From Hydrogenimonas thermophila (lineage in GTDB: Bacteria > Campylobacterota > Campylobacteria > Campylobacterales > Hydrogenimonadaceae), in NCBI RefSeq assembly GCF_900115615.1, contig NZ_FOXB01000013.1, forward strand, positions 1 to 50,275: a stretch of DNA of 50,275 bases, in the 5' to 3' direction. The notes beneath the pieces are model-generated. The model was not told where the DNA came from. It saw nothing but the letters and a program-made list of their open reading frames with translations, and ran no database searches. This document shows, in pieces, positions 6,883 to 35,557 of the stretch (position 1 is its first letter; each line of letters opens with the position of its first letter). The position numbers were made by a program, and so were the translations under genes.

Positions 6883-7980
6883 TTAACTTTTCATCCAATT
6901 TAGATGTTTTTTAAACTGAGAAGGATCAAAAACTTTATCTGTATATACTCTAACATTTCCAAGTCTTGCACGTTTTAGTACAGAGTTATAAAAGTTCTCT
7001 TCTTGCCCTTTTCTCTTCTCCCTTTGATAAATATTTACAATCAATGCTCGTGCCGTACGTCCAAAATAGTCAACTATTGCATCATATTTATAAACAAAAG
7101 AAAGACCGTCCAATCGATGAACATATTTGCATTCAACTGTACCTATGCGATTATTTTCAATAAATAGAACATCGAACTCATTTATAACGTGGCTTTGTTC
7201 TTTTGAATGAGCTAAAAAGTCTATTTTACAACCCATTTTTACATCTTCAAATCCTGCCTCTTTACATTTCCAATATACATACTCTTCAAAAAGCTGACCT
7301 TGAAGTCTTCTTTTATTATGCTCATATTTAAGTTTGTTATTTTCAAGAATATCAATGCGGTTAAGAAGTTTCATTATGTCGTTGTAATGATTGTATGGAA
7401 AATCTTTACTATTGTTTAGTAAAGCTCTGCGAACATTTTGAAATCTTTCCTCATTCTCAAAAAGCTTGCAAACACTCTCTTTATCTTTTATAAACTCCTT
7501 TTCATCTATATACTCTACTATCTCATAACCTAGCATTGAACAGTATGTTTCTATATCCATTTCATCAGCGCTCTTTGTTGTAACTCTGCCATTTTCAATT
7601 TTGAAAATAGTATTGTCATATGCGTCATAACTTAAAAGAGCAGCTCTGTTTTGCAGAAAGAAAGAACCTAATATAATAGTAGGAGCAGCATTGGCATCAG
7701 ATGAGAAAAAGATAACCTTCATACTATCTTTTGTAACTTTTTTGTAAAGATTGTGAATGCTCTCTATAGCTGTTTCATAAAAAGTCTCTGTATCAACAGA
7801 CCAATTTAGTCCTAGTTTTTTACTGAAATGTTGCAAATTTCTCTTAAAACGAAAAGCTCGTCTCTGCTCCTCTTTATTATTATCTATAAGCAAAACAATT
7901 TCTCTTATTTCATCTCTAAGCGTATATATAGCTCCAAGTGATTGCGCTATATCTTCCCCTAAAAGCAATACAAGACGCAC
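6883..7980 (-). CDS. DUF1887 / Card1-Can2-like protein: CARF-type fold plus PD-(D/E)xK nuclease
   Basis: The C-terminal half has a restriction-type nuclease core: GQLFEEYVYWKCKEAG (about 225-240), then VINEFDVLFIENNRIGTVECKY, holding the E-x-D and ExK metal and catalytic residues. The same order is found in DUF1887 proteins such as Card1/Can2, which join a CARF sensor for cyclic oligoadenylate to a nuclease. The N-terminal 160 residues look like a Rossmann/CARF fold (VLLLGEDIAQS, IVLLIDNN, KVIFFSSDANAAPTIILG), but the usual TGGTK-like ligand loop is not recognisable. There is no CRISPR array or cas gene nearby. The GTG start at 7980 has AAAGGA upstream. It is the first gene after tRNA-Arg, convergent to it, and divergent from the toxin-like pair. 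Confidence 0.7.
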   Translation of the reverse strand: MRLVLLLGEDIAQSLGAIYTLRDEIREIVLLIDNNKEEQRRAFRFKRNLQHFSKKLGLNWSVDTETFYETAIESIHNLYKKVTKDSMKVIFFSSDANAAPTIILGSFFLQNRAALLSYDAYDNTIFKIENGRVTTKSADEMDIETYCSMLGYEIVEYIDEKEFIKDKESVCKLFENEERFQNVRRALLNNSKDFPYNHYNDIMKLLNRIDILENNKLKYEHNKRRLQGQLFEEYVYWKCKEAGFEDVKMGCKIDFLAHSKEQSHVINEFDVLFIENNRIGTVECKYVHRLDGLSFVYKYDAIVDYFGRTARALIVNIYQREKRKGQEENFYNSVLKRARLGNVRVYTDKVFDPSQFKKHLNWMKS

Positions 7981-19396: not shown

Positions 19397-20131
19397 ATGC
19401 AACAAATAGATGTGAACTCAGATGAGTTTCAAGCTGAATTGGAAAAGACTTGGAAATTTGTTGAAAAAGTAAATAAACAGTTTGGCTTTGTTCAAAATCC
19501 GGATAGTGAGATAAACGATGGTGTTGCAATGGGGCTTGCTAGAAATAAGCTTATATATGGTAAGCGATACTGCCCTTGTTTTATGGTTATAGGTGAAACA
19601 CCAGAAGAGAGAAAAGCAGCAGATAACCGCATCTGTCCTTGTAAACCTGCATTAGAAAAAGAGATTCCTGAACAAGGTTACTGCCACTGTGGTATCTTCT
19701 GTACTCCAGAGTATGCACAAAAACATGCAAAAGAGGATGCTGCAGAAGAAGCTGCACATCTTCACTCAAGAGGATTAAGCAAAGAAGAGGCTCAATTACT
19801 TCTTGAAAAAGATCAATTAGATGGTGACGAGCTTGAAGCATTAATCGAAGCAAGAGATCTGGGAATGGTTAAATTTGAACTAATTGATGTTCGGGAGCAG
19901 ATGGAATTTCAGATGGGTCATATTAAAGGAACTGATGAGTTATGGCCAACTTCTCAATTTTATGATTGGTTTGAAAAGATTCAAAATAAAAAAGATGATT
20001 ATATGATTCTTTATTGCCATACAGGAAGCAGAAGTTATCAAGTTCAACATATAATGAAAGCTCAAGGCTTTAAACATATTGGCAACCTTATGCATGGTAT
20101 TGTCTCATATAATGGAGAAATTGTAAGATAA
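19397..20131 (+). CDS. Ferredoxin-thioredoxin reductase catalytic subunit fused to rhodanese
   Basis: Residues 1-110 carry the FTR catalytic signature: CPC (59-61), CPC (80-82) and CHC (96-98). These cysteines hold a 4Fe-4S cluster next to a redox-active disulfide used to reduce thioredoxin-type targets with ferredoxin electrons. Spacing between the motifs is longer than in plant FTR. Residues about 150-244 form a rhodanese domain with ELIDVREQMEFQMGHIKG and the active loop YCHTGSRS (Cys207). The fusion suggests a role in ferredoxin-linked thiol or persulfide chemistry; this is inference. TAGGAG precedes the ATG. It is divergent from alaS, with TATAAT at 19336-19341. Confidence 0.9.
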   Translation: MQQIDVNSDEFQAELEKTWKFVEKVNKQFGFVQNPDSEINDGVAMGLARNKLIYGKRYCPCFMVIGETPEERKAADNRICPCKPALEKEIPEQGYCHCGIFCTPEYAQKHAKEDAAEEAAHLHSRGLSKEEAQLLLEKDQLDGDELEALIEARDLGMVKFELIDVREQMEFQMGHIKGTDELWPTSQFYDWFEKIQNKKDDYMILYCHTGSRSYQVQHIMKAQGFKHIGNLMHGIVSYNGEIVR

Positions 20132-20203: not shown

Positions 20204-23200
20204 CTACTCTACATAAATCCAAAAACTTTCATATCTTGAAATATTATTTTCAACCCTAGGTAAAGAATCACCTATTAAGTTATCAATTTCACTGTTTGAT
20301 GTATATACAAACCACTGATTGTTTTTATACAAATACAGTATTTTCAGTACTTTATTTTGAGAATTAATTAAAGTATCTATTTGTTCTGGTGTTTTGTCTT
20401 CATTTACTCCAACCAAGTACCATCCTGAAGTATATAATGTTGCAAAATCATCTGGATCATTTTGTAATTCATCTAAAGAAAAAAGTATGGTTGTTGATGT
20501 AGTAGTTTTTACTACAAACCCCTCTTTAGAATTTAAGTCTTCAAATCTGTCTATTTTTACAGAATTACTGATCTCATTTGTATTATCCCAAAGAGCCCAT
20601 CTATTCCCAAGATATTTAAAAATATACTTTATACTTGGTTTACCAAAAGTAGTATTTAAATCTTGTGAATGCAAAGATGCTTTTACAGGTAAAGATATAA
20701 AGTTCCAGCCTTCATTTAATGCAACAGACAAATTTCCTTCTGTTACAACAATATTTAAACTCTTTTTTATAGTATAACCACTATCAGTAATTACAGTACA
20801 CTTAACTTCATAATTTCCAGGATTCTTGTAAACGTGTAAAACATAAGAGTCTCCATCTACACTTGTCCCATCTCCAAGTTCCCAATATATTGACTCTACG
20901 GAGCCAAAAAGGGGATTTAAGTAATAACTAAGATTTATATCTAAAGGGGCCGTACCAACTGTTTTATTAGATATAATATCAAGAGCATTAACTACTTGCA
21001 AATTGAAAGATTGTGTATCTGATGCTCCTTCTTCATCAAAAAGAGTCAACGTAATAGTTGTGTTACCTTCCATATCAGGTTTAGATGATACTTGTATATA
21101 TATTGGACTGTTATAATCAGCTTGAGTAAGCCATTGTGTATTCCAAGTTTTATTTATATCTACTAATGATGTATTGCTTGACTCTATACTCAAATTCAGA
21201 TCATCTCCTTCAATATCATTTAAATCAAGTGATATATTAAAGTCATCAAAATTTACTGGTTTTAGTATATCATCAATTAAAGATATAGAAGGAGCATCAT
21301 TTTGTTCCTGAATATAAACAGTATAAATTACAGTATCTGTTATTCCATTTACATCAACTTTTAGTGTTAGAGTAATAGTTCCTGATTGGTTGGGCTTTGG
21401 AGTGACAATAAGTACACCATCTTCAATAACTACATCTACAATCGATGGATCTGAAACAGTTACTTCAAAATTACTGTCATCTAAAGGTTGTTCTACTCCT
21501 TCAACAATCAAAGGAATTTCAAAGCTGGTAGAATCTTCTACTATTGTAGTTTCATTACTCTCTAAATGCCAAATAGGAATTGATATCCAGTTAGAAGAAT
21601 TTAAATCAATAGTAAATAAATTATTAGTGCTATTTATAACAGTTTTAAAGTCATTTGAACCATTATTTTCACTATATAGTTTACCATCACTAAAATTGTA
21701 CCAGTAACTTAATGTTTGATTCTCTTCTAAGTCGATCCTTATACTAAAATTATTATCAGGATTATATACTGGAGCTGAAATATTCATATCTCCATCATAA
21801 ATATTATTTATCAAATTTGGATCTATTGAAAAGTTTTCATAATTGCCATCAACTCCAACAATCTGTATATTAGTTATATTATGTTCACTTAAATTAATAT
21901 TTAAAAGACTTAGATTTATATATATTGGGTCTACAAATACTGTAATAAATTGTAAACTTTCATTATTTTCACCTTGTAATAAAATTGTTGTCTCTCCTAC
22001 TGATTTATTTGTTGGTGAAACTTTCAAAGTTGTATTTGAATAAATAAGAGTTGCAATAGCAGTTTCTGGGTCTAGAGAAATAGTATTATCATAACTTCCA
22101 GAATATTTAGGAAGCGTAATGTTGGCACTGTTATCTGCATTAATATGGATATTTTCTATTTTTGGCCATAAAGTAGAATTAATGACTTGATTTAAAATAT
22201 CATCTCTTGCTGCTGCATTTAGCATAATCTCCATCTCTGTATCACCAACACTTTTATATATACTTCTATATACAAAACCACCATCATGTGAAGATAGAGC
22301 AAAAGCATTTTCATCAAAAATATAACCTTCTACATTTGGCATTAAGACTATGATATCTGGGGAATTAGCATAGGTTAGATTGTCATCTTCATTATATCTG
22401 TATGTTTTGTCCGATAATCTTATCCAACTTCCGGCATTTGAATTTATTATATTTCCATATATATCTTTTTCCATCAATATGCCTGAAGTATTATTTTCAA
22501 ATACAAGATATTTTGAGCTGTTTAATTCATTAAAATATATAGCCATTTTACCTGAACTGTTTCTATCATTTATAAATGTATCTATAGAGGTATAATTGTT
22601 ATTATCATAATCTTTTTCTAATCCAATAAGTACAAAATCATCTTTCAATATTTTTTTAACTGTCAGATATCCTTTTGCATCATTTGAAAAATTAAAATCT
22701 ATATAATTTTCACTATATACACTTTGTAAAAGTTCAGACTCTAATATATTGACTAATTTAACTTCCATAATAGAGTATGTATCACTTTCATTTGATTCAT
22801 AAACTGTAACAACATTTTGCTCATCTATATTAAAAGATAAATTATTATGATACACAGGACCAGTTATTGAGGTATTGGTAAAGTTATATTTTATCTCTCT
22901 TATTATCTCATCTTCTAAAGCAACTTTTCCTGTATCTATATCATAATACCCATTTTCATCTATATAGCCGTCAATCCAATATAAATTTAAAGGCAACTGG
23001 TAAAAGATTGATTGATTATCATCATACTCTTGCAAAGATATTCTTTTTCTAATATTGTACAGGTGAACTTTATTCACATTTTCAAAACTATACCAATTAT
23101 TACTATCTAAATTTAGAAAAAGAGTATTATTTGTTGCATCTATTTTAGTAGTAAAATTAGTATCGTCTTTATTTATATAAAGTTTAAAATCACTAAAATT

Positions 23201-25537
23201 AAGCCAATATTGGGAACTGTCATTTAGATCGAAACGAATAGAGTAATTGTGGTCATAAGGAATATTATCTTTTAAAATTATAGTATTACTGTCACTTATA
23301 GAACCAGATAAAAGTATTTGCGAACCATTTTCATCTACAAGATAAATAGAAGTAATATTGCGCTCAATATTGGTAAGATCAAGCCTTAAATCAAAATGTT
23401 TTGCATACTTTAATGCTCTATTGTAGTAATCATAATAACTTATATAAACTTCATCATCTTTATTAAATGTCACATAACTTTCAAAAAACTGTTTTACTCC
23501 ATTTGCACCTGGCTCTATATTTTCGACACTCCATTCTCCTTGCCTATTACTTGCATACAACAGTTCATTACCTTCCATGTATGTAATATGTACTTTTGCA
23601 TTAGAATCAACATTTATGGACTCTATATATAGGTCTGAATTGGAGGTAAGATTTACTATCTCTTTAGTCCAGTTGCCATCTTTATTTGTAAGATATATAA
23701 CTTCATATTCATTTATATCAGGATTTGCCACATATACAATATGAACAGATTGATTTTTATCAACAGTAATAACAGGCTCATAATATGTAGTATAACCTGT
23801 ATTTTCTTTTACAATCGAACCATTTTTATCTGTTGCATACCATATTTGATCTTCAATTAAATATACAATATGAAACTTTTTCTCATCATCAATGTCGAGA
23901 TTACCGGCATATAGATTTGAATTATGATCTATTACAGTTTGTACAAAATCTCCAGATAAATTGCTCTCTAAAGTAAGATTCATTTCATTAATGTTTGAAT
24001 CATATAGGTCTAAAAGCATATATACATTAGAATTTTTATCTATATTGATATTTCTAACATTAGAATTTTCAATACCAGTTTTAATAATCTGTTTATCCAA
24101 ACTATTATTGCCAACTGAGGCATAAGTTAAATTACCATCAAATGTTAAATAGACAATATGGCTTATATTATTTTCATCTATACGAATATTACTTATTGGC
24201 TTTAATCCTGATTTAACTGTATCTATATTCCGATCTACTGTTGTCTCATTTGCCTCATTTTCTGAAATAAGTTTCAATGAGGTTGAAAGACTTGAATAGA
24301 TATCATAGTTATCTAGATATGCTATATGGTATTTTCCATAGTTATCAACTGTAATAGTGCTGTATCTACCAATATCTTTACCACTATCTACTGTTTGCTG
24401 CACCCAACTATCCGAAACATTACTAATATATTTAAGATTATTTTGTGAAAGATAAGTAAGATGAACTTTATTGTTGTTATCTGTAATCAATGAGGTGTAA
24501 ATATTGTAATCACTACTCCCTTCATACATTACATCAAAAATTTGTCCATAATCTATATTCTCATCAAGAGTATTGATGCTCCAGTCAGTACCATTAAAAT
24601 CAGCAAGTTTCAATGCTCCGCTGTTAGTGTGATAATTATATAAATAACTGATGTAAATCGTATCATTTTTATCTATTGCAATTGAAGTATAACTCTTTTT
24701 TTCTAAAGTAGCCGTCGAAACAGTATCTATTTGCCAATCGCTATCTTTTTTTGCATGTCTTATATAGTAATAACCATTTTCATCACTGCTTGCATAACTT
24801 ATATGTACTATATTTTTGCTGTCAACTGCTATTGAGGAATATTCACCAACTATTGCATTGGCAGTTGAGTCAACTGTCTCACTTTGCCAACTTCCTCCTG
24901 AATTTGTTGCATAACGCAATACTACATCACCACCTACTATACCATCATAGCTTATGTGTATACTATCATTTGCATCAACAACTATAGATGAAAAAGTATT
25001 GGCATTTTCATCTATATTAGTTATATCCCAGCTACCGGAACTATTTGTTGCATATGATAAATTACCATCAATAATAAAGCTTATATGAGCAGTACCATCT
25101 GCTTCAACAGCTATAGAGGTATCTACAGCATAAATATACTCTTTCGAATACACAAAATCGGATGTCCAAATACCACCATTATTAGTAGCAAATTTAATAC
25201 TGTTATTTATAGCATCAAAATAACTTACATAGAGTTTATCATTAGAATCTATTGCTATAGAAGCCTTACTTCCAACAGAAAGATTATCATCAATTATTTC
25301 ATAATGCCAAGTTATGCCGTCAAAAAAAGCATGATAAAGCTTATCACCACCATAAACTATATGTGTTGTATTATTGCTATCAACGGTTACAGATCGTTGA
25401 GATGGTAGTTTTATAAATTTTGGATTATATGCAAAGTCAATTTTCCAATTGTTTAAAATATAAGTGCTTTGACTTGCTACTGCATCTTGTAAGATAAAAC
25501 TGATAAAAAATAGAAAAATAGAAAATATTTTTTTCAT
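20204..25537 (-). CDS. Giant secreted protein with about 14 propeller-type repeats, PKD domain and C-terminal repeats
   Basis: 1777 residues, starting with a signal peptide (MKKIFSIFLFFISFILQDAV). The first ~750 residues hold about 14 units of 40-50 residues with the pattern SIAVDSNDxxHISYxxxxNLxYATNxxGxW. The count of about 14 would fit two seven-bladed beta-propellers. Then come a long Asn/Ser-rich beta region, Ig/cadherin-like stretches (SDPSIVDVVIEDGVLIVTPK; QNDAPSISLID), a PKD domain (WELGDGTSVDGDSYVLHVYK) and a C-terminal pair of GWNFISLPV/GWYLVGV units ending in SRYESFWIYVE. No LPXTG, type I or type IX sorting signal is obvious. It overlaps the FecR gene by ATGA and is the last gene of a three-gene operon with a Slam-like exporter. 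Probably a surface adhesin or ligand-binding protein. Confidence 0.75.
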   Translation of the reverse strand: MKKIFSIFLFFISFILQDAVASQSTYILNNWKIDFAYNPKFIKLPSQRSVTVDSNNTTHIVYGGDKLYHAFFDGITWHYEIIDDNLSVGSKASIAIDSNDKLYVSYFDAINNSIKFATNNGGIWTSDFVYSKEYIYAVDTSIAVEADGTAHISFIIDGNLSYATNSSGSWDITNIDENANTFSSIVVDANDSIHISYDGIVGGDVVLRYATNSGGSWQSETVDSTANAIVGEYSSIAVDSKNIVHISYASSDENGYYYIRHAKKDSDWQIDTVSTATLEKKSYTSIAIDKNDTIYISYLYNYHTNSGALKLADFNGTDWSINTLDENIDYGQIFDVMYEGSSDYNIYTSLITDNNNKVHLTYLSQNNLKYISNVSDSWVQQTVDSGKDIGRYSTITVDNYGKYHIAYLDNYDIYSSLSTSLKLISENEANETTVDRNIDTVKSGLKPISNIRIDENNISHIVYLTFDGNLTYASVGNNSLDKQIIKTGIENSNVRNINIDKNSNVYMLLDLYDSNINEMNLTLESNLSGDFVQTVIDHNSNLYAGNLDIDDEKKFHIVYLIEDQIWYATDKNGSIVKENTGYTTYYEPVITVDKNQSVHIVYVANPDINEYEVIYLTNKDGNWTKEIVNLTSNSDLYIESINVDSNAKVHITYMEGNELLYASNRQGEWSVENIEPGANGVKQFFESYVTFNKDDEVYISYYDYYNRALKYAKHFDLRLDLTNIERNITSIYLVDENGSQILLSGSISDSNTIILKDNIPYDHNYSIRFDLNDSSQYWLNFSDFKLYINKDDTNFTTKIDATNNTLFLNLDSNNWYSFENVNKVHLYNIRKRISLQEYDDNQSIFYQLPLNLYWIDGYIDENGYYDIDTGKVALEDEIIREIKYNFTNTSITGPVYHNNLSFNIDEQNVVTVYESNESDTYSIMEVKLVNILESELLQSVYSENYIDFNFSNDAKGYLTVKKILKDDFVLIGLEKDYDNNNYTSIDTFINDRNSSGKMAIYFNELNSSKYLVFENNTSGILMEKDIYGNIINSNAGSWIRLSDKTYRYNEDDNLTYANSPDIIVLMPNVEGYIFDENAFALSSHDGGFVYRSIYKSVGDTEMEIMLNAAARDDILNQVINSTLWPKIENIHINADNSANITLPKYSGSYDNTISLDPETAIATLIYSNTTLKVSPTNKSVGETTILLQGENNESLQFITVFVDPIYINLSLLNINLSEHNITNIQIVGVDGNYENFSIDPNLINNIYDGDMNISAPVYNPDNNFSIRIDLEENQTLSYWYNFSDGKLYSENNGSNDFKTVINSTNNLFTIDLNSSNWISIPIWHLESNETTIVEDSTSFEIPLIVEGVEQPLDDSNFEVTVSDPSIVDVVIEDGVLIVTPKPNQSGTITLTLKVDVNGITDTVIYTVYIQEQNDAPSISLIDDILKPVNFDDFNISLDLNDIEGDDLNLSIESSNTSLVDINKTWNTQWLTQADYNSPIYIQVSSKPDMEGNTTITLTLFDEEGASDTQSFNLQVVNALDIISNKTVGTAPLDINLSYYLNPLFGSVESIYWELGDGTSVDGDSYVLHVYKNPGNYEVKCTVITDSGYTIKKSLNIVVTEGNLSVALNEGWNFISLPVKASLHSQDLNTTFGKPSIKYIFKYLGNRWALWDNTNEISNSVKIDRFEDLNSKEGFVVKTTTSTTILFSLDELQNDPDDFATLYTSGWYLVGVNEDKTPEQIDTLINSQNKVLKILYLYKNNQWFVYTSNSEIDNLIGDSLPRVENNISRYESFWIYVE

Positions 25538-27159
25538 TGTTTAGTTCCTCCAAAAACCCCTATTGCTGAACCATTAGATATACTATCTAATTGAAAACTA
25601 CCTCCAATACTTTCAACATTTGGACCATAAAAACCTCCATTAATATTTCCACTAATTCCTTCAACATCACTATCACTACTTGAAGCTATACTATTACTTT
25701 CAAAATAGTAAGGAGTTACTAAACCATCTGTAATCTCAAATTTCCAGGTTGGTTCATCAGCAGCTTGAAATTGCATTACACCTGAAAGTGTCTGAGCACC
25801 AAAATCTATACTCATATCAAATGTTCCTGTTGCAATTTTACCGTTTGTAATAGCGGCTACATCACCTGAATAACTAGCTGTAATATGATCTGTAATATAT
25901 CCTTCAACTGCTTCTGCCGGCGAAACTGTACCATTAACCCAAGTATCTACAGGATTATTTTCATTATCCATCCAGTATCCAAATGACATATAGTCATCAC
26001 TATATAATGTTTCTTCTAAACCACTATCTTCAATAGTATCTATATCCACAGTTGTTTCACCATTTGAAGGATTAGGAATATCTACTTCAACTGTTGTACT
26101 TTGCGATGGATCATAAACTTCTGTATTAGGTGGACTTGATATGCTTCCTGCTTCAGCATCTGTTCCTGCTGTCTCACTATCTGTAGGATTCGGTATATTC
26201 TCTGATACAGTTTCTATTTCATTATTCACTGTATTTATAATATCATTTGAGTTTTGTGTATTAACAGTATCTTCTGTAATTTCTACAATGGTATCTATAT
26301 TTTCAGCTATTCTTACTATATCTGTATCTGTTACAATTACTGCATCAGAGATTTGATTTGAATGTTGTTCTATTGCAATATCAAGATTTTGATTATCAGT
26401 AGTTTTATTCTCTGTATCAGCTACTAGCTTTTCATCATTGGAAACATCTTGATTACTACTAGTTGTCTCATTGCTTTGCTCAGTTTTAAAAGTTTCATCT
26501 TTCTGCTCTTTTTCTGTAGAAGTTTTTTTTATTTCTTTATTTTTTTTATCTTCTTTTGCTTTCTTTTTACTAAATTCATCAATATCTCCAGCTACAAAGT
26601 CTCTTGGAGGTGTAGGAGAAGAGTTTGGTTTTACTTCTGTTATCTTTCCAGCCTCAACATAAACACTTTTACCATTAAAATTAGACATAACACTTATAGC
26701 TCCCTGAGTACAAGCTATTTTATCACCTTTAATAGGGGATGCTTCAATAATAATTTCTGTACCTCTAATACCTATAGTTGCATTCTTCGTTTTTAACTTA
26801 AACTTTTTAGGTGCTATTTTTCCTATTTTTCCTGTAATTGTTCTAAACAAACCTTTTGTCATACCAAATGATACTTTTGATTTTTTAGAATCCTCAAAAA
26901 GATACTCTTTTATTGAAAATTTACTATTTCTTCCAATAGTTACAACTGTTTTATCATTAAATATCAACTGTACTTTACTATTTTCTTTAGTTATAACAAT
27001 ATCTTTATCTTCTATAGAACTACCAGTATTGGCTATGATTTTTTTTCCAGACCTTTGAATATAAGCTTCTCCTTTAACAGCAGCAACCACTCCAACCTTA
27101 GCAACTAAACTATATGCTGAAATCATAAAAATAATAAATGCAATCAATAACTTTTTCAT
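25534..27159 (-). CDS. FecR-domain protein with C-terminal TbpB-type barrel (putative type XI secretion cargo)
   Basis: 541 residues. A signal peptide (to about 20) is followed by a FecR/DUF4880-like region (about 25-180): VAAVKGEAYIQRSGKKI, VQLIFNDKTVVTIG, and NATIGIRGTEIII. A low-complexity Lys/Glu/Thr/Asn-rich linker spans about 185-370. The last ~160 residues match the TbpB_B_D fold: MSIDFGAQTLSGVMQF, then GISGNINGGFYGPNVES, GGSFQL and the terminal AIGVFGG. That barrel is the domain recognised by Slam-type (T11SS) exporters in surface lipoproteins and hemophilins. There is no lipobox, so the product would be released or held otherwise. It starts 2 bases after the Slam-like gene. In other bacteria FecR-domain proteins often sit beside CHASE2 cyclases, as here. 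Confidence 0.78.
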   Translation of the reverse strand: MKKLLIAFIIFMISAYSLVAKVGVVAAVKGEAYIQRSGKKIIANTGSSIEDKDIVITKENSKVQLIFNDKTVVTIGRNSKFSIKEYLFEDSKKSKVSFGMTKGLFRTITGKIGKIAPKKFKLKTKNATIGIRGTEIIIEASPIKGDKIACTQGAISVMSNFNGKSVYVEAGKITEVKPNSSPTPPRDFVAGDIDEFSKKKAKEDKKNKEIKKTSTEKEQKDETFKTEQSNETTSSNQDVSNDEKLVADTENKTTDNQNLDIAIEQHSNQISDAVIVTDTDIVRIAENIDTIVEITEDTVNTQNSNDIINTVNNEIETVSENIPNPTDSETAGTDAEAGSISSPPNTEVYDPSQSTTVEVDIPNPSNGETTVDIDTIEDSGLEETLYSDDYMSFGYWMDNENNPVDTWVNGTVSPAEAVEGYITDHITASYSGDVAAITNGKIATGTFDMSIDFGAQTLSGVMQFQAADEPTWKFEITDGLVTPYYFESNSIASSSDSDVEGISGNINGGFYGPNVESIGGSFQLDSISNGSAIGVFGGTKQ

Positions 27160-27161
27160 AG

Positions 27162-28526
27162 CTAAAACTCTTTAATAATATTTATATTTGCATAACTTTT
27201 TTTATATGCAGAAGATGGATGATTTGAATAATTTTTTATATGTCCTATACTACCCTGAAATATAAATCCTTTACTCATTTTTTTAGTAAAACTGATTGAA
27301 AAATTGTAGTACCTGTCTTTTCTTTTTGTTCCATAAAGAGAATCTATATCTTTGTATTTAATATCTCTATACAATAGTTTTAGACCAAAACTTTTATCTT
27401 CAGTAAATTTATATACAGTACCTAACCCAAGAGCAATTGCATCTAAATCAATATTTGTTAAAACACTATCAATTTTTCTCTCTTGTTGGTAACTAATTGT
27501 TGGATTAATAAAAAACTTATTACTTAACTTTTTTTGTATCGATAAAAATATTTCATAAAAATTTGCATCTCTCTCCTTATTTAATAAACTTTCAGGTATT
27601 TTTCTTTGAAATTTTAATGAAATTTTGTACATAAAAGTTTTTGACAACATATATTGTAAAGATGGAGAGAAGTAAAAAGTATGTAGATATGGATTAGAAC
27701 CATAAAACATTCTTTCATAGCCAATAGCTAAATCTACTAAATATTTATTTTTCCTATAAGAAATAGCAGGAGAGTAACTATAAAAAAATATATTTTTATC
27801 TGAATATTTCTCCATTGTTTTCAAAAAAAACAAAAAGTTATTTTTTAAAGCAAAACCTCCAGGATTACCAATATCATACAGATGATTTAATATGAGTATC
27901 TCTTGATGAGCATAATCACTGTCATATGTAACAGTATTGTCAAGATTTATCTGTAATTTTGGAATATAATATTGTTCATCAACAGGAGAGTTGTTTACAT
28001 TGGAGTCATAAGATATTCCGACAACTGCTATTGCTTTTAAAAAAGATTTTTTTCTAGATTTTTCAATTGCTTTCAAATATTTTTTTACATTTAGTTTTAC
28101 CTGTACAGGAATGTTCTCTTTTAATATTTCTTCAAAAAGATTTTTTGATTTATCTAGTTTTTTAGTTTCAAAATATATCTTTGCAATTTCTAACTTTGCT
28201 CTAATATTAGTAGGTTCAAGCATTAAAACTCTCTCAAATGCACTAATAGCCTCTTCAAATTTTCCTAGTTTATATGCACTTCTTCCAAGATAGTATTGCC
28301 ATTTAATATTTTTTAAATTATTTAATAAATATCTATTTAATACCTCATAAGACTTTTCATATTTACCATTTTTATAGTAGTAAATTGCTCTCTTTAATTT
28401 TTGGTCTTCTTTTTTATTTATATTTGAATAATTTTTTAAATTACTTCTACTACTGTGTAATTCTGTACTATTATTTCCTGCATTAAGAATAGAATAAAAA
28501 AGAAGTAAAATAAAAATCTTTTTCAC
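27162..28526 (-). CDS. TPR plus outer-membrane barrel protein (Slam / type XI secretion-like)
   Basis: The N-terminal ~180 residues contain TPR units (YYKNGKYEKSYEVLNRYL; YYLGRSAYKLGKFEEAISAF; AKIYFETKKLDKSKNLFEEI). The remaining ~280 residues alternate aromatic and polar residues in strands and end with NINIIKEF, a C-terminal Phe as in outer-membrane barrels. TPR followed by a barrel of this size is the plan of Slam proteins, the T11SS translocons. I choose GTG at 28526, giving 454 residues and a clean signal peptide (VKKIFILLLFYSILNAG), since AAGG lies just upstream; a TTG at 28553 is possible. It is the first gene of the operon with the FecR/TbpB-barrel protein and the giant protein. Generic TPR porins are an alternative. 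Confidence 0.75.
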   Translation of the reverse strand: MKKIFILLLFYSILNAGNNSTELHSSRSNLKNYSNINKKEDQKLKRAIYYYKNGKYEKSYEVLNRYLLNNLKNIKWQYYLGRSAYKLGKFEEAISAFERVLMLEPTNIRAKLEIAKIYFETKKLDKSKNLFEEILKENIPVQVKLNVKKYLKAIEKSRKKSFLKAIAVVGISYDSNVNNSPVDEQYYIPKLQINLDNTVTYDSDYAHQEILILNHLYDIGNPGGFALKNNFLFFLKTMEKYSDKNIFFYSYSPAISYRKNKYLVDLAIGYERMFYGSNPYLHTFYFSPSLQYMLSKTFMYKISLKFQRKIPESLLNKERDANFYEIFLSIQKKLSNKFFINPTISYQQERKIDSVLTNIDLDAIALGLGTVYKFTEDKSFGLKLLYRDIKYKDIDSLYGTKRKDRYYNFSISFTKKMSKGFIFQGSIGHIKNYSNHPSSAYKKSYANINIIKEF

Positions 28527-28670: not shown

Positions 28671-30815
28671 ATGAATAAAAAAAAATTATACATCATATCT
28701 ACTTCCATAATAGTTACACTTTCAATAATATTCGGATATTTATATCATTATGAATTACTTAATCCTTTTGATAAAAAAATAGTAGATCTAATGTTCAAAA
28801 TTAGAGGCTATCAAATACCTAGTAAAGATATTGTCATCATAGATATTGATGAAAAAAGTTTGAATGAACTAGGACAATGGCCCTGGTCTCGCAATAAAGT
28901 TGCAAAAATTTTATACAATCTTAAAAATGCTGGAGCCGGAATAATAGGTCTTGACATCGTTTTTTCAGAACAAGACAACAGTTCTCCTAAAAAAATTTTA
29001 ACAGAGCTTGGAATAGAATATCAAAATGCTCCCGATTATGATGAAATACTTGCAAAAGCAGTTTCTGAAACACCAACTATTCTTGGATATATATTTGATT
29101 TTGAAAATGACAGTAATCTAGAAGGGAGTTCTCCTGAAATTCCTGTTATTTTTATAGAAAAAAATCGTCCAAAAGAGTTAGATTTTATAATTAAAGCAAA
29201 ACGTGCAATACTAAATATTCCAATTATTCAAAACAACGCTTATTCTAGTGGTTTTTTCAATACAATTCCAGATAACGATGGTATTGTTCGTACAGTCCCA
29301 CTTATAGTACGTTACGATGACTCTATTTATCCATCTTTGTCATTAGAAATTGTGCGAGCTATAATTGGAGTTAATAAAGTTTATATTAATTATACTTCAT
29401 CCGGTGTCACATCTGTACAAATGAATGATTTAATCATACCAACCGATCGTTTTGGAAGATTGCTTGTTAATTTTAAAGGACCAGCTAAAAGTTATACTTA
29501 TCTTTCTGCCTCAGATATATATAACAATAAATTTAACTATGATCTTATTAATGGAAAAATTGTATTAATTGGAACTTCAGCATCAGGATTACTAGATCTT
29601 CGAGCTACTCCATATGATAGTACATTTCCAGGAATTGAAATTCACGCAAATACCATTGACAACTTAATAAATCAAACATTTATCACTATACCTGACTGGA
29701 TAGAAGTTGCTGATATTTTAGTAATGATTACAATATGCTTAATATCTGTAATTATATTCTCAATAACACCTCCATTTTTATTAACACTATTTATACCTCT
29801 TATTTTTGGAGGTTTTTTTATATTTTTATATAAAATGCTTTTTGAATATCATATTTTACTTAATACTATATTTCCATTACTTCTTTTAATATCACTATTT
29901 TCTATTTCAACAATAATTAATTATTTTTATGAAATACGTATTAAAGAGATTATAAAAGACAAATTTGCAAAAAAAGTTTCTCCTCAAGTTGTAGAGGAGT
30001 TACTTAACAGTCCTGAATCTGATGCATTTGATATAAAAGAGAAGGAAATTACAATATTTTTTAGTGATATTAGATCTTTTACTTCAATTTCAGAACAGAT
30101 AGGAAACCCTAAACGTCTTATTGAATTACTTAACAGATATATGACACCAATGGTAGATATTATTATAAACAATAAAGGAACAATTGATAAATTTATTGGT
30201 GATGCAATTATGGCTTACTGGAATGCACCACAAAATTTAGATAATCACCAAGATGCAGCTGTAACATCTGCTCTTGAACAGCTGCAAATGCTTGAAAACC
30301 TTAATAATTCATTTAAAACTGAAGGACTGCCTGTTATAAACATAGGAATTGGAATTCATACAGGATTAGCAACAGTTGGGGAAATGGGTTCACAAGGACG
30401 GAACGATTATACTGTAATTGGTGATAATGTAAACCTTGCTTCAAGACTTGAGGGATTAAATAAATATTATGGAACTCAACTTATCATTTCACACTTTACA
30501 AAAGACAAACTTCATAAAACATATATTACACGCGAACTAGATACCGTGTTAGTAAAAGGGAAAAAACATCCAGTTACTATATACGAAGTTCTTGGATTTG
30601 GAACTCCAGATGAGAAGTTGAAAAAAGAATTAAACTTATATGAAAAAGCCTTATCTAAATATAAAAATAGAGATTTTACTGATGCAAAATATTTTTTTGA
30701 AATAATCTATAAAAATTCTCCAAAAACTCTTTATAAAATATATATTGAACGTTGCAACAACTTTATTAAACATCCTAATAAATTTAATGCAATTTATGAA
30801 TTTACTACCAAGTAA
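28671..30815 (+). CDS. CHASE2-domain adenylate cyclase (class III)
   Basis: A membrane anchor (about 5-25) is followed by a periplasmic CHASE2 sensor (about 30-330; VDLMFKIRG, IVIIDIDEKSLNELGQWPW, IIGLDIVFSE, DNDGIVRTVPL), three membrane helices (about 340-425) and a class III cyclase domain (about 455-620). Catalytic features are the metal-binding Asp pair (IFFSDIRSFTSIS; FIGDAIMAYW), a Lys in DKFIGD and Thr/Asp in DYTVIGDNVN fitting ATP as substrate, and the Asn/Arg pair in NVNLASRLE. A short helical tail follows. The product is probably cAMP. It is divergent from the FecR operon and its end overlaps the convergent phosphodiesterase gene by 11 bases. Confidence 0.92.
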   Translation: MNKKKLYIISTSIIVTLSIIFGYLYHYELLNPFDKKIVDLMFKIRGYQIPSKDIVIIDIDEKSLNELGQWPWSRNKVAKILYNLKNAGAGIIGLDIVFSEQDNSSPKKILTELGIEYQNAPDYDEILAKAVSETPTILGYIFDFENDSNLEGSSPEIPVIFIEKNRPKELDFIIKAKRAILNIPIIQNNAYSSGFFNTIPDNDGIVRTVPLIVRYDDSIYPSLSLEIVRAIIGVNKVYINYTSSGVTSVQMNDLIIPTDRFGRLLVNFKGPAKSYTYLSASDIYNNKFNYDLINGKIVLIGTSASGLLDLRATPYDSTFPGIEIHANTIDNLINQTFITIPDWIEVADILVMITICLISVIIFSITPPFLLTLFIPLIFGGFFIFLYKMLFEYHILLNTIFPLLLLISLFSISTIINYFYEIRIKEIIKDKFAKKVSPQVVEELLNSPESDAFDIKEKEITIFFSDIRSFTSISEQIGNPKRLIELLNRYMTPMVDIIINNKGTIDKFIGDAIMAYWNAPQNLDNHQDAAVTSALEQLQMLENLNNSFKTEGLPVINIGIGIHTGLATVGEMGSQGRNDYTVIGDNVNLASRLEGLNKYYGTQLIISHFTKDKLHKTYITRELDTVLVKGKKHPVTIYEVLGFGTPDEKLKKELNLYEKALSKYKNRDFTDAKYFFEIIYKNSPKTLYKIYIERCNNFIKHPNKFNAIYEFTTK

Positions 30816-33165
30816 GTGAAACTTCATCAATCTGTTCAGGATGTAAATGTTTTTTAGCATATTCAAGATAAATTTTTTTTTCATAAAAAAACTTTACCAT
30901 ATCATAATCTAACTCATTATCTTTTGCCATAAAATAGAGAATTTTCATTGCTTCAGAAAGTTTTTTTGGTGTCTTATATGGACGATCCGGTGCAGTCAAT
31001 GCTTCAAATATATCTGCAATAGCTAAAATTCTTGCTTCAAATGGAATTTCATCACCCTTTAATCCATTAGGATACCCTTTTCCATTTAGTTTTTCATGGT
31101 GAGCACCTGCAATTTCTGGAATACGGCTATATTTTTTAGGAAACGAAAGCCTTTTTAAAATCTTTTGTGTTTCAATAACATGATCCATAATTTTTTTTCT
31201 CTCTTGGTCAGTTAATGTACCTTTTCTGACACTAAGAGCTTCATATTCATCTTGTTCAATAAGTTTATTTAATTTGCCATCAATTTCTACAAATATTTCA
31301 TCATATATCTTTTTAAGTCTTTCAACTTTTTCATCACTAAAAAACTCACTCCCTCTATTTGACTCTTCTAAAAAATTCGTAATTTCATCTAAAATTTTAT
31401 TATCAGAGTATTTGCTATTAATATACTCTTTCTTATATGTTTTGCCAATATCTCTTTTTAATATTTCTATTTTTAATTTTATGCAATTAATTCGATCATA
31501 AATACTTTCAAGCTTTGTCTGTTTGTTTATTAAAAAATCAGGTGTTGATATTTTGCCAATATCATGCATTAATGCTGAAAGATAGATCTGTTGCAACTCT
31601 TCATCATTAAAATATATATCTTTATATATGCCACTATTATCTGAGACTATTGCTTTTGCAAGCATCATAGTAATTTCAACCATACGGCGAATATGGTCAC
31701 CTGTAAATGGTGATTTTTCATCTAATGTAGTAGCAAGAGAGTTTAGAAAAGATATTAACATATGCTCTAAATCATATATTAAAAGCTGATTGCGCATTAA
31801 AAGTGCTGCTTGTGAAGCCAATGATTTAGTAATATTCTCATCATCTTTACTAAAAGGAACTATATCTCCAAGATTATTTTGTCTATTAATAAGTTGAAGT
31901 ACTCCTATTACTTCACCTTCATGATTTTTCATAGGTATAACAAGCATAGATTTTGATCTATATCCTGTCATTTGATCAAACTTTTTTGTACCACTGAAGT
32001 TATAACGCTTATCATTATATACATCTGCTATATTTATAACCTTGCCAGTTAAAGCAGATGCAGCAGCAACCATTTCCCAATTTTTGTCTCCATTTTCATG
32101 GTATAAAGGAACAAGAGGCCAATCTGGTTTATCTTCTGAATTTAATCCTTTATTTATTTGCAAAGTTTCATTTTGAATTATTTGAAATTCAAGATTTTTA
32201 TGCTCTTGATCCATAATATAAAGAGTCCCGCCATCAGCATTTGTAAACTCTCTTGCTGCATACACAATCATATTAAAAAGTCTGTTTTTATCAGTTTGTG
32301 CTGTCAACATTGTTCCAATATGCATTAAACGAGCAAAATTTTCATCAGAATTTTCAAATTTATCTATATTTTTATGTAGTCCGCTTTCATAGTCTATGAA
32401 ATCACCATCATCAATTACTGTTACACCTATTTGTGAAAGTTTTATAGACTTTTCTATGTTTTGTAAAATCTCCTGTTTATGTGATGGTTTTATATGATTT
32501 ATATATATATTTATATCTTTTCGTTTTAGATTAGAAAGTTGTTTTTCCAATATTGAAGGAGTAAGATGACAACTTACTTTTGCTAAAGACTCATATCCAT
32601 TAGGAAATGATACTTCAAAAATAGCAGCAGTAATATTACTATTTCTATTTATCTCTTCTGTAATTGAAGGACAAAGATAAGTATCAGATGAAAATAGTAT
32701 TGAGTTTTTGCCATTATCTATAATATATCCACAACTTCCTTCCATATGATGGTTTTTTATTGGTATTAATGATAAATCCCTTATTTTAAAACGCTGACCA
32801 TACGATAATGGTACTAAAGTTACAACAGGTTCTCCCCTGTCATTAATAGCTATTTTTGTATAATCAGTCCAAATTTCATTACAAAAAATATGATTTTTTA
32901 TATTTGAAAGAGTCTTTTCAATCCCATAAATATAAAATGTTTTATCTCTTTTATCAAAAATACTATCTATTAGATATGGAATATCATTTATATGATCAAG
33001 ATGTGAATGAGTTAAAAATAGATGATTGATCTCAGTAAAGTCATATTTATAACCTTTAATTATATTACCTGCATCTATTAAAATATCTTGAGCAACCTGA
33101 ATACAAGTAGTAAAACACTCTTTTGTCTTACCACCATATGATCCTAAAAATTTAATTCCTTCCAT
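30805..33165 (-). CDS. Fusion of class II cyclic-nucleotide phosphodiesterase, GAF and HD-GYP domains
   Basis: 786 residues in three parts. Residues 1-260 are a metallo-beta-lactamase fold of the class II 3',5'-cyclic nucleotide phosphodiesterase type, with HLFLTHSHLDHIND, NHHMEGSCGY and ILFSSDTYLCP. Residues about 280-460 form a GAF domain (ANDGGTLYIMDQ-like, SMLVIPMKNHEGEVIGVLQL). Residues about 475-760 are an HD-GYP domain with ALMHDIGKI and GAHHEKLNGKGYPNGLKGDE, the c-di-GMP phosphodiesterase signature, with an unusual helical insert between the two. One protein would thus degrade a cyclic mononucleotide and c-di-GMP. It overlaps the GGDEF-EAL gene by 14 bases and is convergent with the cyclase. 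Confidence 0.88.
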   Translation of the reverse strand: MEGIKFLGSYGGKTKECFTTCIQVAQDILIDAGNIIKGYKYDFTEINHLFLTHSHLDHINDIPYLIDSIFDKRDKTFYIYGIEKTLSNIKNHIFCNEIWTDYTKIAINDRGEPVVTLVPLSYGQRFKIRDLSLIPIKNHHMEGSCGYIIDNGKNSILFSSDTYLCPSITEEINRNSNITAAIFEVSFPNGYESLAKVSCHLTPSILEKQLSNLKRKDINIYINHIKPSHKQEILQNIEKSIKLSQIGVTVIDDGDFIDYESGLHKNIDKFENSDENFARLMHIGTMLTAQTDKNRLFNMIVYAAREFTNADGGTLYIMDQEHKNLEFQIIQNETLQINKGLNSEDKPDWPLVPLYHENGDKNWEMVAAASALTGKVINIADVYNDKRYNFSGTKKFDQMTGYRSKSMLVIPMKNHEGEVIGVLQLINRQNNLGDIVPFSKDDENITKSLASQAALLMRNQLLIYDLEHMLISFLNSLATTLDEKSPFTGDHIRRMVEITMMLAKAIVSDNSGIYKDIYFNDEELQQIYLSALMHDIGKISTPDFLINKQTKLESIYDRINCIKLKIEILKRDIGKTYKKEYINSKYSDNKILDEITNFLEESNRGSEFFSDEKVERLKKIYDEIFVEIDGKLNKLIEQDEYEALSVRKGTLTDQERKKIMDHVIETQKILKRLSFPKKYSRIPEIAGAHHEKLNGKGYPNGLKGDEIPFEARILAIADIFEALTAPDRPYKTPKKLSEAMKILYFMAKDNELDYDMVKFFYEKKIYLEYAKKHLHPEQIDEVSLTW

Positions 33166-35557
33166 TAGAAGCCTTTTTTAACTCTGGTTCTGGCTTACCA
33201 AAATAGTACCCTTGAAATTGTTCTATTCCAATATCTTTAGCAGCTTTAAAAACCTCTTCACTACTTACAAATTCAGCTACAGTTCCAACTCCAAGAGCTT
33301 TAGAAAACTGAACTATTGATTTTACAATTTGATATGATTTTTCATCATTAGGAAGATTTCTGATCAATGATCCGTCTATCTTTATAAAATCAGGTTGAAG
33401 TGTTGCAAGATATGAGAAGTTTGAATAACCTGTTCCAAAATCATCAATCGCTATCTTTGCACCTAAACTCCTTATTGTCTCAACAAAACGCTGAGCTTCT
33501 TCATAACCATCCATACTTTCACTCTCAAGTAGTTCAAAAATAATTCTCTCAGGTTCAGGAAATCTTTTCACTTCCTCATAAATCATGTTCATAGTATCTC
33601 TATTAAGCAAATCTATAATACTCAAATTTATTGATACTGCATAAGGTAATGATTTAAATTGCTCAAAACTTTTTTGAACTACTACTCTTGTTAAAGAGTG
33701 GTAATATTTTGATCTTTTAACCACATCTAAAAAGAGCCCAGGAGGTACTATATTGCCACTCATATCGATCATTCTAACCAATGATTCATATTTGATTATA
33801 TTACCATCTTTATCAACAATAGGCTGATAATATGGAACAATATGATCTGACAATATAGCTATTCTAACTGCTTTAAGCATCTCAATATTTTGCTTCTCTT
33901 CAGCTCTTTGTTGTGGTTTTTTATCATAAACATAAACATCAATATGCCTATTTTCTGCTTCGTGTACAGCTATATCTGCTTCTTCAAGCAAAAATTCATT
34001 AGATGTACTAACACCCACATGAACTTCAATATTTATATCAAAGTCTAACTCTTCAAAAATAAATGTACCCTCTTCTATATCTATAACTATATTTTTCAAA
34101 CATTCAACAAACTCATCAAGAGTCCTATCTTTAAATCCAAGTAGAACAAACTCATCTGAACCACTTCTATATAATTTTAACTCCCCATTATACTCTTCAA
34201 TCATTGCAGAAATTCGTTGAGAAAGTGCAAGTAAAATCTGATTTCCTACCTCAACTCCATAAGTATCATTTATTGATTTAAATCTGTAAATATCAATAAG
34301 TGCCAATTTACAATCAGGCATAGATTTAATATCTTTCTCTAATGCAACTCTATTTGGAATTTTTAATTCAGGATCCATTAATATTTGCGACTCAAGTTCA
34401 CGCCTAACCTCTTCTAACTCTTTTGTTCTGGAAGCAACAGCCTCTTTTAACTGTGTATAATAACTACGCAACATTTTTCCAAGTTCAATAAGATCATTTT
34501 TAATTAATGAAATTTCATCATCTCCCTTTTCGGGTTTTATTTTGTCAACAATATCAAATTGTTTATGCCTAAAAGCTTCACTCAATTTATATACTGAATC
34601 TATTCTTGACTTTAAACGTCTTGCAATAATATACATTACTAAACCAAAAAGCAAAATCACGGCTAAAACTATAGAGCCATGCATCAGCATTCCAGTTAAA
34701 AAGTTTTTATTATATTCTGAAATAGGATGAAGTACTCCTACTTTTCCTATCTCCTCACCTCTAAAACCTATAAGTGACTGAAGTGTAAGCAAATACTCTT
34801 CATCCTTAAAATCAATTGTCTGTACTCTTTTTGAAAAATCAATTTTTTCTATTATTGTGTTATTTACACCTTTTGTTTTTGCACCCAAAAGCCAATCATT
34901 CCAAGATTTTCCCAAATTAGCATAATATTTGTATGCATTAGGTGAAAGATAACGTAATGCCTCTAACCTATAAGTTAAAAAAACAGGAACTTGTACTAAC
35001 TTTCCTAAAAAATCAGGGAGCCACTCTAACTTTGCACCAAGAGAAAGCCCTCCAAGTATTGTTCCATTTTTATCAAAAATAGGATATGTAGAACGTACCC
35101 CTGCATAAGATTTGCATACCATTAAGTGGTCACTTGGCTTAAATGAACTAGTAACCCAAACAATATCACCACGCACATTTTTTACATTTATAGGCTTAAT
35201 TGAACTATTTGAAAAATTATAAAAGTTTTCTGCAGGAGGTTTAAAAAAGTGAATTTCATAAAGTAGTTTTTTACTATATGCAAGTTTCCAAAAACTACTT
35301 AAATGTTTTTCTATAATTTCAGGCTTATTATAAAGATAAGCATCGATTACCTCTTTATCATTTGCAATCATCATTGACAAAAGATGCAACTGCTCCTTTT
35401 TTAACCTTAGTAGTAAATTCAAATCACTAGAATCAGTTTTTAAAAAAGTTTGTTTATATTTTTCTAACCCACTATAATAGTTTGTTATCTCAGCAAGAAA
35501 ATATAAAACTACTATAAATAGCGTAGTCAATATAACAAAGCGGAAAGAAATTTTCAT
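33152..35557 (-). CDS. Cache-like sensor GGDEF-EAL protein (c-di-GMP turnover)
   Basis: 801 residues. A membrane helix (about 5-25), a periplasmic Cache-type sensor (about 30-285) and a second helix (about 290-312) are followed by a HAMP-like linker and coiled coil. The GGDEF site is degenerate: RSGSDEF in place of RGGDEF, so cyclase activity is doubtful. The EAL domain keeps the key residues: ESL, NLS, ELLESE, IDDFGTGYSNF, IKIDG, AEFV and QGYYFGKP. It is probably an active c-di-GMP phosphodiesterase, with the GGDEF domain perhaps sensing GTP. It is cotranscribed with the PDE-GAF-HD-GYP gene, which starts inside its 3' end. Confidence 0.9.
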   Translation of the reverse strand: MKISFRFVILTTLFIVVLYFLAEITNYYSGLEKYKQTFLKTDSSDLNLLLRLKKEQLHLLSMMIANDKEVIDAYLYNKPEIIEKHLSSFWKLAYSKKLLYEIHFFKPPAENFYNFSNSSIKPINVKNVRGDIVWVTSSFKPSDHLMVCKSYAGVRSTYPIFDKNGTILGGLSLGAKLEWLPDFLGKLVQVPVFLTYRLEALRYLSPNAYKYYANLGKSWNDWLLGAKTKGVNNTIIEKIDFSKRVQTIDFKDEEYLLTLQSLIGFRGEEIGKVGVLHPISEYNKNFLTGMLMHGSIVLAVILLFGLVMYIIARRLKSRIDSVYKLSEAFRHKQFDIVDKIKPEKGDDEISLIKNDLIELGKMLRSYYTQLKEAVASRTKELEEVRRELESQILMDPELKIPNRVALEKDIKSMPDCKLALIDIYRFKSINDTYGVEVGNQILLALSQRISAMIEEYNGELKLYRSGSDEFVLLGFKDRTLDEFVECLKNIVIDIEEGTFIFEELDFDINIEVHVGVSTSNEFLLEEADIAVHEAENRHIDVYVYDKKPQQRAEEKQNIEMLKAVRIAILSDHIVPYYQPIVDKDGNIIKYESLVRMIDMSGNIVPPGLFLDVVKRSKYYHSLTRVVVQKSFEQFKSLPYAVSINLSIIDLLNRDTMNMIYEEVKRFPEPERIIFELLESESMDGYEEAQRFVETIRSLGAKIAIDDFGTGYSNFSYLATLQPDFIKIDGSLIRNLPNDEKSYQIVKSIVQFSKALGVGTVAEFVSSEEVFKAAKDIGIEQFQGYYFGKPEPELKKASNGRN

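Follow-up and report, generated by a model that had tools for sequence, protein, structure and literature searches.

In the described type XI secretion systems (T11SS), such as Slam1-TbpB, Slam2-HpuA, HrpB-HrpC/hemophilin and NilB-NilC, an outer-membrane exporter is encoded beside a protein with a pedestal and an 8-strand barrel. The published plan of Slam is a tetratricopeptide-repeat (TPR) domain and a 14-strand barrel (PMC5449769); in the cargo, the C-terminal barrel is thought to target secretion (PMC8406197), while the N-terminal part is the effector (PMC12282271). Outside one animal-associated cluster, T11SS exporters mostly have no known cargo (PMC12282271), and a 2017 survey left the neighbourhoods of epsilonproteobacterial Slams unanalysed (PMC5449769). 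In 2022, a Campylobacterota gene cluster of a CHASE2 adenylate cyclase, a cyclic AMP (cAMP) phosphodiesterase, a FecR-domain protein and a TPR protein was proposed to form one signalling pathway (PMC9239204). We analysed a locus with these same four genes in Hydrogenimonas thermophila, a relative of Campylobacter with a genome of 2.44 Mb (assembly GCF_900115615.1, contig NZ_FOXB01000013.1); the whole stretch of 50,275 nucleotides that was analysed is called the window below. The TPR and FecR proteins, recognised in the 2022 study neither as a Slam-type exporter nor as a barrel-bearing cargo, are very probably an exporter of the T11SS family and its cargo-type partner. The component parts and the four-gene cluster were already known; the T11SS identity of the two genes appears to be new.

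Three genes are tightly packed on the reverse strand. The exporter-like gene (27162-28526, -) opens with a GTG start at 28526, immediately preceded by an AAGG-like ribosome site. The gene of the FecR-barrel protein (25534-27159, -) begins 2 bases past its stop, and its own stop is overlapped, through an ATGA motif, by a giant gene (20204-25537, -). An earlier note on this DNA had described this packing, and its positions and strand are confirmed in the sequence. The limits it had set for the operon stand for the three genes, but the most conserved partners lie just outside them: a CHASE2 adenylate cyclase (28671-30815, +), divergent from the operon, and a phosphodiesterase (30805-33165, -). 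The cyclase matches Pfam CHASE2 at 3.4e-63 and Guanylate_cyc at 4e-23. The phosphodiesterase, likewise kept in the cluster, joins a metallo-beta-lactamase/class-II cAMP phosphodiesterase region (PDEase_II) to GAF and HD-GYP (HD_5) domains. The same genome encodes four cyclic-nucleotide-binding proteins, which could serve as receivers of the signal.

The 454-residue exporter-like protein was modelled with AlphaFold2 from an alignment of 85 sequences. The model consists of the helices of a periplasmic TPR domain (residues 36-158; 28053-28421, -) followed by exactly 14 strands of an outer-membrane barrel (residues 161-453; 27168-28046, -), with a mean predicted local distance difference test score (pLDDT) of 92.9 and values mostly above 95 in the strands. 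Fourteen strands are the number expected of a T11SS exporter, against 16 in PgaA-type proteins. A Foldseek search with the model gave a high template-modelling score to the 14-strand OmpG, and matches to CymA, BcsC and PelBC; searched against PDB sequences, the exporter profile found TPR proteins only. These matches fit the Slam plan without being specific to it, and family membership therefore rests on sequence. The TPR domain of the window copy matches Pfam TPR_2 at 1.2e-13 and TPR_Slam at 0.0011; for SlipAM (PF04575) the protein scores 22.2 bits, marginally above the cut-off of 22. Its relatives are clearer: 35 of the 85 match SlipAM (best 1.3e-25) and 50 match TPR_Slam (best 3.9e-12). The earlier note had proposed a protein of Slam plan here and had named beforehand, as the outcome that would speak against it, a porin without a Slam-like fold; the model and the family matches returned the TPR domain, the 14 strands and SlipAM instead.

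The neighbouring protein of 541 residues carries both a FecR domain and a TbpB-type barrel. It scores above the Pfam gathering thresholds for FecR (2.7e-11, residues 55-142) and for TbpB_B_D (3.3e-10, residues 436-540); the NCBIfam model slam_lipo gives 1.4e-11, yet stays under its cut-off (45 against 80 bits). Its AlphaFold2 model, built on an alignment of 48 sequences, shows a confident FecR domain (residues 21-180; 26620-27099, -), a disordered linker (residues 213-379, pLDDT below 50; 26023-26523, -), and then three pedestal strands and a barrel (residues 381-540; 25540-26019, -). The barrel has exactly 8 strands, between residues 427 and 540, in blocks of pLDDT 94-98. Foldseek places NHBA first for this C terminus (6cuj, 9.9e-9), followed by TbpB, HpuA, hemophilin and fHbp, each of them a barrel protein of the kind seen in T11SS cargo; a sequence profile run against PDB chains, independently of the fold search, finds TbpB at 2.2e-13 and NHBA at 4.6e-9. 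The FecR domain is matched to PupR (6ovk, 1.5e-5), a FecR-type periplasmic signalling domain. Read from the sequence, the N terminus is that of a Sec signal peptide and contains no lipobox, and a lipobox was found in none of 74 relatives. An 8-strand barrel at the end of a FecR protein, and a cargo without a lipobox, were both anticipated in the earlier note and are borne out. Two loci, L054 and L055 (G067:C25), encode an 840-residue FecR protein with three copies of the TbpB-type barrel; they are two copies of a single locus, which lie on the same contig and face opposite ways.

Exporter and barrel occur together far beyond this window. The H. thermophila genome has a single SlipAM match and a single TbpB_B_D match, in adjacent genes, and neither family was matched in 14 control genomes. 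A first exporter-only search of named genomes gave no matches. Among 397 genomes of the order, full-length relatives of the exporter were found by profile in 97 and the barrel, by a barrel-only profile, in 77. The exporter is present in 74 of the 77 barrel genomes and in 23 of the 320 others (Fisher p ~1.5e-55, which overstates independence, as the genomes are related and the seed sequences were first gathered as neighbours). To limit the circularity of such seeds, we examined the 79 exporters that were found by profile only: a FecR gene lies no more than 300 bases away and in the same orientation in 62, a gene with the barrel is adjacent in 46, and the fetched stretch includes a CHASE2 cyclase in 49, many stretches ending at contig ends. 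In Campylobacter gastrosuis (L204 and L220) there are two Slam-like loci with FecR genes; Campylobacter was without Slams according to an earlier survey (PMC5449769). An apparent fusion of FecR and CHASE2 cyclase (L095/L178, 1106 residues) was set aside, as its reading frame passes through Ns, which mark a gap in the assembly of a repeat.

The pairing extends to Gammaproteobacteria, where the exporter profile found full-length relatives in 64 of 274 sampled genomes. We fetched the 40 top-scoring loci: a FecR gene is present in 34 of them, nearly always adjoining the exporter, and a CHASE2 cyclase in nine. SlipAM is matched by 22 of 32 gammaproteobacterial exporters, while the C termini of the FecR proteins are mostly too diverged for Pfam TbpB_B_D. 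In Thiomicrospira sp. WB1 the complete four-gene module, FecR-barrel protein, exporter, cyclase and phosphodiesterase, stands in one run. Such breadth bears on the possibility that exporter and FecR-barrel protein are a working T11SS, with the cyclase, the phosphodiesterase and the giant as unrelated neighbours moved along by gene transfer. The cluster is patchy enough to allow it, the barrel being found in only two sampled genomes of its own genus, and some exporter-FecR loci have no cyclase. Nevertheless, we consider this very unlikely: the linkage holds in dozens of genera and in another phylum, and across several arrangements of the genes. Order reshuffled with membership kept favours function over chance co-transfer.

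We propose that the FecR protein, displayed by a T11SS-type exporter, is part of a trans-envelope receptor that controls the CHASE2 cyclase, and that a large branch of Slam-like exporters in Campylobacterota and Gammaproteobacteria, so far uncharacterised, has such FecR proteins as its principal partner. We put the probability of this reading at roughly 0.4; for the signalling model in the form that follows, in which a T11SS exporter-cargo pair is wired to a cAMP sensor, the odds are about even. The Slam-like protein would recognise the TbpB-type barrel and carry that end of the FecR protein through the outer membrane. In the periplasm, the FecR domain at the N terminus would fold and be kept back, in the way that LapA-type adhesins are held by their retention module; the linker would span the pore and leave the barrel displayed on the surface. 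Events at the surface, or the success of export itself, may then alter the periplasmic FecR domain, which would act on the cyclase through its periplasmic CHASE2 domain; the adjacent phosphodiesterase would reset cAMP. The giant protein could be a strain-variable surface partner that supplies binding. The computation shows what the domains are, their predicted folds, and the linkage of the genes and its breadth; we infer the export, the retention of FecR, the contact with CHASE2 and the role of the giant.

Retention is suggested by four features taken together. Across relatives, the length of the linker ranges between 43 and 2647 residues; the 3000-residue protein of L089 leads from FecR through a repetitive helical stalk to the barrel; there is no lipobox; and the FecR domain bears a weak similarity to the LapA retention module. 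The NCBIfam model retention_LapA (NF033682) aligns with residues 21-86, that is with the first half of the model, at 4.2e-7 and 30.3 bits, below the cut-off of 50, so that we count it as a resemblance and not as membership; the same weak similarity is seen in 31 of 48 relatives. LapA-type adhesins share with our protein an N-terminal periplasmic domain of some sequence similarity, a long variable middle and a C-terminal secretion signal. They differ in using type 1 secretion (an ABC transporter and a TolC-like protein) under control of LapD/LapG and cyclic di-GMP (c-di-GMP), whereas our locus has a Slam-like exporter and would use cAMP as its messenger. By this analogy, a fixed periplasmic end, a variable stalk (up to some 2600 residues in relatives) and an exported end would be the simplest reading, and a FecR domain kept in the periplasm would be able to meet the periplasmic CHASE2 domain. 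For signalling, the single pathway proposed in 2022 speaks in favour (PMC9239204), and there is a precedent for an outer-membrane barrel that supplies CHASE2 cyclases with a signal in NsrA of Sinorhizobium (PMC13001267).

What sets this cargo apart from that of the described T11SS is a FecR domain and a long linker, without a lipobox. It is not a surface lipoprotein, nor can a haem or iron carrier be recognised in it, and its gene is linked to those of cAMP rather than to TonB-dependent receptors. FecR is unmentioned in the T11SS surveys consulted, and the main texts of the literature searched never join FecR to T11SS. A Sec signal peptide without a lipobox is nonetheless the signature of soluble T11SS cargo (PMC8406197), and the N-terminal part of known cargo is an exported effector (PMC12282271). 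The whole FecR-barrel protein might accordingly be secreted in soluble form, like hemophilin, with FecR as the effector, and the cAMP genes might lie nearby only because cAMP regulates the operon. We find this unlikely. Characterised FecR domains, including that of the structural match PupR, are periplasmic; the linkage of FecR, exporter and cyclase holds where the barrel is absent; and the extreme variation of linker length suggests one fixed and one displayed end.

FecR domains are best known from FecA-FecR-FecI, where likewise a FecR-type periplasmic domain stands beside an outer-membrane protein. The present operon differs in having no FecI sigma factor and no TonB receptor (the neighbours of the FecR gene are the exporter, the giant, the cyclase and the phosphodiesterase), and its FecR protein has no inner-membrane anchor after the signal peptide. 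It could still be imagined that the outer-membrane protein is a receptor or channel, that FecR is its periplasmic plug or reporter, as FecR is on FecA, relaying to CHASE2, and that the TbpB-like barrel stays in the periplasm. NsrA of Sinorhizobium meliloti speaks for this as well: this outer-membrane barrel is a receptor through which a signal from the plant reaches CHASE2 cyclases (PMC13001267), and the likeness is one of described role. In addition, FecR proteins without a barrel keep an exporter-like partner. A receptor or channel is still improbable in our view, as known T11SS cargo is targeted by way of its TbpB-type barrel (PMC8406197), nearly all genomes with the barrel also have the exporter, and the family reaches strong matches to SlipAM. 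Some exporters of this very family have instead an ordinary barrel cargo as their partner, which in L072 is a lipoprotein and in L133 a protein that joins CHAP and VWA domains to the barrel (L133:9392-12859).

In L133, L135 and L136, proteins that end in a TbpB-type barrel are encoded directly beside the Slam-like gene and look like another undescribed type of cargo. Neither FecR nor barrel genes lie close to the Slam-like genes of a starred clade (L120, L121, L127, L131 and L137); a barrel gene is present at another place in at least four of the genomes. In L062, L088 and L092, short FecR genes without a barrel flank the exporter, ahead of the cyclase.

Several observations weigh against a FecR protein displayed by T11SS and controlling the cyclase. 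The partners of a clade of 10 exporter genes are short FecR proteins, which stop shortly past the FecR domain and lack a barrel, with the cyclase still adjacent in most cases; exporting a barrel is thus not the sole function of the family, which spans secretion and possibly, where the barrel is no longer needed, a role in sensing. The SlipAM membership of the window exporter is marginal, and the protein is absent from the hmmscan listing for that family. Foldseek returned generic 14-strand and TPR-barrel proteins for its model, and no Slam. Some clusters have no nearby cyclase, partly owing to contig ends. Finally, retention of FecR is argued from a weak similarity to half of the LapA module and from analogy.

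The giant protein (1777 residues) has a signal peptide, repeats of weak similarity to propellers and a PKD domain (PKD_4, 8.2e-11); the NCBIfam model beta_propeller_lectin reaches 4.4e-5, below its cut-off. Its C-terminal 187 residues (20207-20767, -) recur, by profile (72-83 bits) and alignment, at the end of the giants of L166, L202, L208 and L218, which directly follow the exporter and FecR-barrel genes, and in L122 a related propeller/RCC1 giant occupies the same slot. The three-gene order with a giant, which the earlier note had suggested looking for elsewhere, is therefore found in five other loci. As a fixed partner, on the other hand, the giant did not hold up: most clusters have none, and in L042, L102 and L105 the slot is filled by immunoglobulin-like, FG-GAP and Lcl_C proteins. 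The proteins of this slot look like adhesins, and the giant is best described as an optional, variable partner. We ruled it out as the main or obligatory cargo: it has no barrel, it is missing from most clusters, and the giants of the slot are often unrelated to one another.

Elsewhere in the window, a GGDEF-EAL protein (33152-35557, -) adjoins the phosphodiesterase and brings enzymes of cAMP and c-di-GMP together. A Card1-like endonuclease domain (Pfam, 3.6e-10), possibly CRISPR-associated, is encoded at 6883-7980 (-), and a rhodanese domain fused to the beta chain of ferredoxin-thioredoxin reductase at 19397-20131 (+). A scan with Rfam gave no matches, promoter-like sites were not more numerous than in shuffled sequences, and no terminator-like sites were found.

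Altogether, the Slam-like exporters of epsilonproteobacteria gain a recurrent partner, and protein secretion would be tied to second-messenger signalling. Probable molecular identities can be given to both genes that the published cAMP cluster had left unexplained, and they suggest, in a form open to testing, how the outside could be sensed by a CHASE2 cyclase that lies behind two membranes. The pairing of exporter, FecR protein and cAMP genes recurs in many free-living relatives of H. thermophila, and could let these cells sense something at their surface.

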